A stretch of DNA of 33,041 nt from Methanothermococcus sp. SCGC AD-155-E23 (lineage in GTDB: Archaea; AGJL01; Methanococci; Methanococcales; Methanococcaceae), in the NCBI GenBank assembly GCA_019561615.1, contig JAHEQA010000027.1, positions 1 through 33,041 on the forward strand. The letters are read 5' to 3'. The translations under genes and the position numbers were made by a program. The notes beneath the pieces were generated by a model, which was not told the DNA's origin, searched no databases, and worked only from the letters and a program-made list of their open reading frames with translations. Within the stretch, counting starts at the first letter, position 1. The number at the start of each line of letters is the position of its first letter. This document shows positions 24,052 to 26,456 of the stretch, piece after piece.

Positions 24052-24834
24052 ATGATATTGAAGTTAAATGTCCCCCAGTGGCACTACAGTATGCTCCAGG
24101 ACAGGGAGAGGTTAGGTGTATTCAGGTGGGCTATAGAGAGAAGTGTTAAACCTGAGGATATACTCTACGACGTAGGCACTGGCAGTGGAATACTGGCCAT
24201 GATAGCAGCGAGAATTGCAAGGAAGGTATACGCCATTGAGTTGGATCCTATAACCTACCAGTACGCCCTGGAGAATATAAGGATAAACAGGTTTAAAAAC
24301 ATAGAACTTATTGAGGGTGATGCAAGGGAGTATATCCCAGAGGAAGAGGTAGATGTAGTAGTTATGGAGATGTTGGATACTGCACTTATTACAGAGCCTC
24401 AGGTTCCAGTTATGAATGCCATACTTAAGAGAGGGATTCTAAAGGAGGGTGGAAGGGTTATACCTCAGAGGGTCTACAACACAGCCCAGGTAGTGGTATC
24501 CAAGATGAACCATATCTACTACGACGAGGAGGTAACATCGGAACCCCTATCCCAGGAGATACTTTACAGTACAGTGGATTTCCACAGGATAAACAGGGAG
24601 GAGGTCTCCTACTACCTGGAGTTCAAGATACCTCCTGAAGTTAATGAGGATAGGCTAGGTATAAGGTTAAACACCTACACCCAACTGAGAGAGGATACAG
24701 TGGCTGGAAGCACCCCTATGTTAAATCCACCTCTTATTATACCTGTGGAGAATCCTAGGATAGAGGACAACATATTGAAGGTTAAACTGTCCTACAGAAT
24801 GGGGGGAGATCTAGAGAGTATAAAAGTAGAATAA
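24052..24834 (+). CDS. Class I SAM methyltransferase resembling protein arginine methyltransferases
   Basis: The 260 residues open with HYSMLQDRERLGVFRWAI (about 11-28), matching the PRMT H..ML.D..R helix. SAM motif I is YDVGTGSGILAM (39-50), with acidic AIELD after it. The next signature is VVVMEMLDTALITE, where E106 and E115 have the nine-residue spacing of the PRMT double-E loop that holds the arginine guanidinium. The C-terminal half (about 140-260) is strand-rich, like the PRMT beta barrel. Protein arginine methylation is therefore plausible, but an RNA or other protein target is not excluded. It starts 11 bases after the DHH gene, with GGGAGG ahead. Confidence 0.7.
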   Translation: MILKLNVPQWHYSMLQDRERLGVFRWAIERSVKPEDILYDVGTGSGILAMIAARIARKVYAIELDPITYQYALENIRINRFKNIELIEGDAREYIPEEEVDVVVMEMLDTALITEPQVPVMNAILKRGILKEGGRVIPQRVYNTAQVVVSKMNHIYYDEEVTSEPLSQEILYSTVDFHRINREEVSYYLEFKIPPEVNEDRLGIRLNTYTQLREDTVAGSTPMLNPPLIIPVENPRIEDNILKVKLSYRMGGDLESIKVE

Positions 24835-24851
24835 TTTTTATTGGTGGGAGT

Positions 24852-25682
24852 ATCAGGGTAGGTATACTATGTTGTAGAAAGACCCTTGAAAACCTACTTA
24901 TCTACAGGTACCTGTCAAGGAGATATCCCACTACTTTTATAGATCCTAGAAAGTTAAGATTAGATGTTGATCTTATTCTCTCAAGGGTTGAGAGAGACTA
25001 TTTAAAAGAGGGTCTAGAGGCCCTGAAGTATATTGAGGAGACTACAGATATTGAAGTTATTAATCCAGGGAGAGCTGTGAAGATATGTCAAAATAAATAC
25101 CTCACATATCAGGTGCTAGGGGAGTACATGCCAGTTTCCATCCAGGTGTCTCCAGATAACTTCCAGGATGTAGATTACCTCATGGAGGAGGTAGGTTTAA
25201 AATTCCCTGTAGTAGTAAAGCCAGTCTATGGGGGCTACGGTGATGGGGTTTTAAAGTTAGAGGGAATGGAGGATCTAAAGGGTTTTTTAAATAGATACTA
25301 CGAGAGGAACTCCAGTAACCTTATCCTTCAGGAGTATATACCCTATAGACATGATGTAAGGGTCTTCGTTATCGATAACAGGGTAGTATGTGCCATGGAG
25401 AGGATCCCTAAAAATGACTGGAGGGCAAATTGCTCCCTTGGAGCAGAAACCAGGAGATTCTCTATAGGGGAGGATGTTGAGGATCTTCTTTTAAAGGGTG
25501 TTAAAAAAGTAGGTGCCCACATAGTTGGAGTGGATGTGTTGATAGATGAAGAGGGCAACCACTACATACTGGAGTTGAATATAACCCCTCAATTTAGAAA
25601 CATTATGAGATATGTAGATATTCCCCTGGAGATAGTGAAGTACATAGAAGAGAGGTTAAGTTCCAACAACCATAGGTTCTGA
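24852..25682 (+). CDS. RimK/MptN-like ATP-grasp ligase with apparent ATC start
   Basis: This ATP-grasp amino-acid ligase has an N-terminal pre-grasp domain ([35 protein letters not shown]) and the grasp domain [34 protein letters not shown] and [18 protein letters not shown]. Relatives add glutamate to tetrahydromethanopterin (MptN), F420 (CofF) or lysine-pathway carriers; the substrate here is uncertain. The frame has no ATG, GTG or TTG between the upstream stop at 24783 and a GTG at 25077, which would delete the conserved N-terminus. A perfect GGTGGGAGT site precedes ATC at 24852, exactly where ATG is expected. It overlaps the convergent AspDH gene by 27 bases. Confidence 0.75.
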
Positions 25683-26456
25683 AAGATCCTTAATAAGTCT
25701 TATAACGGAGTAGGCTGCCAGCGCTGAGGTCTTAGGATTCTCCCTGGAGGGCACATTCTCCACAACTGTTCTTATAGTACCAGTGGAGCCTCTAACTGTC
25801 ACCTCATGTCTATTTACAGAGATCTTTGGATCCACCACTATCTTAACCTTTGTTGGAAAGTTAGATGCCAGATAGAGTACTAGAGAGACATTTATATTCT
25901 GAGGAAATTTCTCTATAGCCTCTGAGAAAGAACCTTCAAAGACGGTAGTAGGTTCTGAAATAGCATCTATATCAAACCCCAACCTCTCCAGTGCATCCCT
26001 TAACCCCTCTAGAGGTTTTACCGTTGTCAATGTCACCTCGTATATCTCCCCTAGAGAGGCTGCCTTGATTGCATCTATCCCTGCAATAGCCCCTGAAGGT
26101 ATGTATATCCTTCTGTTGTGTTTCTTTGCAAGGTTGTAGAGTTTCTTGTAGAGGTTAAGGTCTTTAAAGGCACCTACACTCATTATTATTACATCCTTTC
26201 CCCTTTCTATAGCCCTCGTTGCCACCTCCTCCACCGCCTGGATGGAGGCACACTCTATCACCAGGTCCAGATCCTTCTCTACTAACTCCTCTATGGAGTG
26301 ACATACTTCAGCTCCTACCAACCTCCCAAGTTTCTCCGCCTTGTGGATGTGCCTGTCGTAGAGGGCTACAACCTTAGGGTTAATAATACCCTTTAAAATG
26401 GCATTAACTATGGAGGTTGCAATGGCTCCACAACCTACCATCCCTATCCTAAGCAT
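25656..26456 (-). CDS. nadX: L-aspartate dehydrogenase (NAD biosynthesis)
   Basis: It oxidises aspartate to iminoaspartate for quinolinate synthesis, in place of NadB. The 266 residues have an N-terminal Rossmann motif [32 protein letters not shown], the central [11 protein letters not shown] and [16 protein letters not shown]-terminal alpha/beta domain carries the likely catalytic segment [16 protein letters not shown] and [17 protein letters not shown] 26456 lies 12 bases after the PRC-barrel gene stop, so the two are probably co-transcribed. Its end overlaps the ATP-grasp gene tail to tail by 27 bases. Confidence 0.92.

Follow-up and report, generated by a model that had tools for sequence, protein, structure and literature searches.

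Where does translation of an ATP-grasp ligase gene begin when its reading frame holds none of the usual start codons at the place where the protein should start? The gene lies on the forward strand (24852–25682, stop codon included, 276 aa) of a 33,041 nt stretch of DNA, here called the window, from an archaeal assembly that is 86% complete and in 51 contigs. A codon-level reread confirmed that ATG, GTG and TTG are all absent from the frame between the upstream stop TAA (24783–24785) and GTG at 25077–25079, which is codon 76. As the first-pass annotation had it, ATC at 24852–24854 occupies the expected start position and is directly preceded by GGTGGGAGT (24843–24851). The same 9-mer was said to precede the ATG at 118, and it does so, but on the minus strand. 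An out-of-frame ATG-TTG-TAG was located at 24869–24877.

The start region, the ligase and its neighbours

Within GGTGGGAGT, a Shine–Dalgarno (SD) site, GGTG, with its first G at −9, is followed by a 5 nt spacer. GGTG at −9 is also the common spacing in the lineage, judged from 342 ATG, 58 TTG and 52 GTG sites in two relatives. The 16S rRNA 3′ end, read from the related genome G005, is GGATCACCTCCT, which pairs as the complement with AGGAGGTGATCC.

The earliest canonical codon of the frame, GTG 25077, would yield a protein of 201 residues. The segment ahead of it behaves as coding sequence. Over nine pairs of orthologs, dN/dS for codons 2–75 was about 0–0.24, similar to the remainder of the gene (the more distant pairs have reached saturation at synonymous sites). 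In an alignment of 21 orthologs, 13 residues upstream of codon 76 are invariant, in agreement with the earlier suggestion that the residues beginning RVGILCCRK are a genuine N-terminus. Judged by this selection, the stretch ahead of GTG 25077 appears to be translated and under strong purifying selection. The first β-strand of the predicted structure comprises residues 3–6, and a protein beginning at codon 76 would be without the first four strands of the N-terminal domain. Among the relatives, the first canonical codon also wanders between codon 15 and codon 78. As codons 2–75 are both under purifying selection and encode the first four strands, we exclude GTG 25077 as the main start and regard initiation there as highly improbable.

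The ligase scores 169.7 bits against the RimK family model TIGR00768, above the curated cutoff of 143.4, and is matched by PF08443. The AlphaFold model has a mean pLDDT of 93.2, and its nearest folds are ArgX, RimK and LysX, the best being ArgX 3vpb (TM-score 0.83 by query length). The fold and ATP-grasp domain are thus those of the RimK-family ligases (LysX/ArgX, RimK, MptN and CofF), but the window ligase differs from several of these in scoring below their curated cutoffs: 114.4 against 350 bits for MptN (NF040720), 73.7 against 300 for CofF (TIGR04443) and 122.5 against 275.6 for LysX (TIGR02144), and likewise for RimK, the ribosomal protein S6 ligase. MptN and CofF are encoded by separate genes in the same genome. 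On these profile matches the ligase is classed as an unassigned member of the RimK-family ATP-grasp enzymes, separate from both MptN and CofF, and, going by its family, its probable reaction is the ligation of glutamate or a similar amino acid to an amine or a peptide. A literature search, confined mostly to papers available without subscription, returned no published function for the ligase in M. maripaludis.

Directly upstream, also on the forward strand, is a gene for a SAM-dependent methyltransferase (24052–24834; TRM5/PrmA-like profile matches), which is probably cotranscribed with the ligase gene. A methyltransferase gene on the same strand lies 11–234 nt upstream in 15 of the 21 ortholog loci, and the uncharacterised methyltransferase and RimK-family ligase (24052–25682 in the window) form a conserved pair in Methanococcales. 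Downstream, a converging gene for L-aspartate dehydrogenase (25656–26456, reverse strand; NF009830, 383.6 bits) overlaps the 3′ end of the ligase gene.

Start codons and SD sites of the orthologs

A search of 81 genomes recovered 21 orthologs of the same family, all from Methanococcales and including that of the window, with identities of 41–100%. At the homologous start position, 15 have AUU, AUC or AUA (hereafter AUH; ATC in 5, ATT in 9 and ATA in 1) and 6 have ATG. The 6 ATG orthologs, which are what the first-pass annotation had proposed to look for, fall into two separate clades of the tree, and none has GGTG; weaker sites are found there, for example AGGGATTTTT. Each of the 15 AUH orthologs has GGTG, at −9 or, in two cases, at −10. 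The association of GGTG with AUH (15/15 versus 0/6) gave P = 1.8e-5 by Fisher's test, which ignores relatedness. In two AUH species the codon is offset, by one codon or by three, while GGTG keeps its spacing, and two ATG species show an offset of one codon. A strong SD site with a weak codon, or the reverse, is the pattern that would be expected under selection for a fixed output level. Folding of the start region found no structure common to the orthologs.

While a single draft genome was in view, it was natural to suspect that a true ATG had been misread or misassembled, or had recently mutated. As ATC, ATT or ATA is present in 14 other genomes, which are independent assemblies and some of them complete, both options are refuted and we give them almost no weight. 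The remaining option that had been raised, real initiation at AUC, is the one supported by the orthologs.

In 11 of the 15 AUH orthologs, the first canonical codon after the upstream stop comes at codon 15 or later. The other four (G002, G007, G003 and G011) have an in-frame GTG or ATG 3–6 codons upstream that could serve as the start, which counts against AUH initiation in those genomes; these codons lack an SD site of their own and overlap or precede GGTG.

The frame might instead be entered from the methyltransferase gene, by frameshifting or by termination and reinitiation, with no independent initiation at AUC. The methyltransferase stop is 18 nt before AUC in the window, and in G008 it overlaps the GGTGA, which speaks for such entry. 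However, the methyltransferase gene of G005 lies on the opposite strand at a distance of 935 nt, and the examined flanks of G017, G020 and G021 contain none, yet the GGTG-AUH site is retained in all four. We therefore consider entry from the upstream gene very improbable as a replacement for AUC initiation, though coupling could aid the AUC codon in the window.

Putative AUH starts in other genes

Within the window, no second gene that requires an AUH start was seen. To survey more widely, stop-to-stop frames of the complete G005 genome were compared with 1.2 Mb of G011. Antisense shadow frames dominated the raw comparison until overlapping frames were removed, and a best-site-per-gene scan with an SD matrix was too noisy and was discarded. 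A canonical codon was available in 779 of the 801 comparable G005 genes (ATG 627, TTG 80 and GTG 72). AUH starts were rare, at about 10 of 801 genes in G005 and about 6 of 811 in G011, figures that rest on one complete and one partial genome and on a final list chosen manually from a short list. The G005 genes outside those 779 also include many with ATG slightly downstream, one conserved UGA case that is probably a selenoprotein, and some broken frames.

In G005, AUH with a correctly spaced SD site was found for genes encoding the ATP-grasp ligase, a 23S rRNA methyltransferase-like protein, MoeA, a substrate-binding lipoprotein, a radical-SAM-like protein, agmatinase, a glycosyltransferase-like protein and an MTAP-like protein, and for g5_-_297861. 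A comparison of GGTG-anchored codons brought hisF onto the list, and G011 added RIO-kinase-like and dCTP-deaminase-like genes, among others. Names of listed genes outside the scanned set are our presumed assignments from recognised motifs, the MTAP-like gene being among those recognised. Where GGTG anchors a non-canonical codon in a gene with no ordinary start nearby, that codon is AUH in 14 of 26 cases, compared with 11% at control positions (P = 1e-7), although rRNA shadows account for several of the 12 non-AUH codons and may account for one or two of the 14 AUH codons.

Two G005 frames contain TGA. At C1 1207688–1208675 (forward strand), protein conservation starts just after a TGA common to both genomes, and the product is probably a selenoprotein. 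A 755-codon frame at about C1 501382–503647 (forward strand) has an in-frame TGA exactly where the homologous G011 gene has ATG.

At hisF, the relatives provide a natural series at one codon. By pattern searches, which were used for both hisF and the MTAP-like gene, the outgroup family and three genera were found to have ATG at the homologous position, and six genomes from the genus of the window have TTG or GTG there. Five genomes, G000, G004, G005, G008 and G010, among them the window's own, have ATC or ATT preceded by GGTG at −9 (G005 C1 794494, reverse strand; G000:C20:3507–3541). The MTAP-like gene (G005 C1 49052–49083, reverse strand) has ATA in G001, G004, G005 and G010 and ATG, GTG or TTG elsewhere. 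The gene for the substrate-binding lipoprotein (L177–L185) has ATT or ATC in 8 of 9 species; in the genome from which the window comes it has ATG. Because the N-termini of such genes are well known, AUH initiation is the simplest reading. Since relatives keep AUC, AUU or AUA at the ligase gene and several other genes behave alike, this looks like a real, overlooked start mode rather than a sequencing error. From sequence comparison, this branch of Methanococcales appears to have AUH codons as a rare but stable class of starts, used by about 1% of comparable genes.

Probable initiation at AUC and its significance

We conclude that the ATP-grasp gene is very probably translated from AUC 24852 by genuine initiation. 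GGUG would pair with the 16S rRNA 3′ end and set AUC in the P site, where the initiator Met-tRNA (anticodon CAU) would read A and U and tolerate C in the third place, such that the protein starts with methionine. The AUH class probably persists because the protein level needed is well served by a weak start. What the sequences show directly is where the site lies, how it is spaced and that it is conserved, that the following codons are under selection and that other genes of the lineage behave alike; from these we infer initiation at AUC, insertion of methionine and low output.

For infC and pcnB of Escherichia coli, AUU is an established start codon (cited in PMC1780047). As is proposed here, these natural chromosomal genes have their expression limited or controlled by an AUU start. 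The present case differs in that the organism is an archaeon, AUC, AUU and AUA are all found, the encoded ligase has no known part in initiation, and the trait extends to about ten genes of one relative's genome. An ATT start has also been proposed for a tubulin gene of an Asgard archaeon, on the grounds that an N-terminal strand was missing and a ribosome-binding site looked plausible (PMC13394414). That archaeal example concerns a single gene, whereas here there are 15 orthologs, selection on the codons and several other genes.

The infC and pcnB precedents invite a regulatory explanation, in which initiation at AUC or AUU depends on how faithfully start codons are selected (through aIF1 level, stress or growth), in the manner of E. 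coli infC, and ligase output follows the state of the ribosome. In its favour, AUH has long been conserved with ATT and ATC interchanging and AUG confined to two clades, start codon and SD strength trade off among the orthologs, and aIF1, which disfavours non-AUG starts in vitro (PMC6237735), is present in all 25 genomes searched. However, the ligase has no known tie to initiation, viable relatives have AUG orthologs, and AUH starts are common to several unrelated enzymes, which fits plain low expression or drift. On balance we think a regulatory device of this kind unlikely. Somewhat more plausible, but still tentative, is the broader proposal that start-codon selection is relaxed in one branch of Methanococcales, making AUU, AUC and AUA a regular extra class at particular genes (hisF, the MTAP-like gene, agmatinase, moeA and the ligase gene) that would hold output low or responsive to initiation fidelity. 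Loss of aIF1 was rejected as the cause of any such relaxation, given its presence in those 25 genomes.

Across 36 groups of genomes, a survey of switches in start codon recorded one change from AUG to AUU and one from GUG to AUU, though it uses annotated starts and may undercount (PMC5622118). Our literature search, with the same coverage as above, found no AUU or other AUH starts reported in methanogens or Methanococcales. Roughly 1% AUH starts, some of them kept across species, would far exceed the recorded frequency. Gene callers limited to ATG, GTG and TTG will truncate or shift genes with AUH starts. The hisF series, which runs from AUG through GUG and UUG to AUC and AUU, would provide a natural testbed for start choice by archaeal aIF1 and initiator tRNA.
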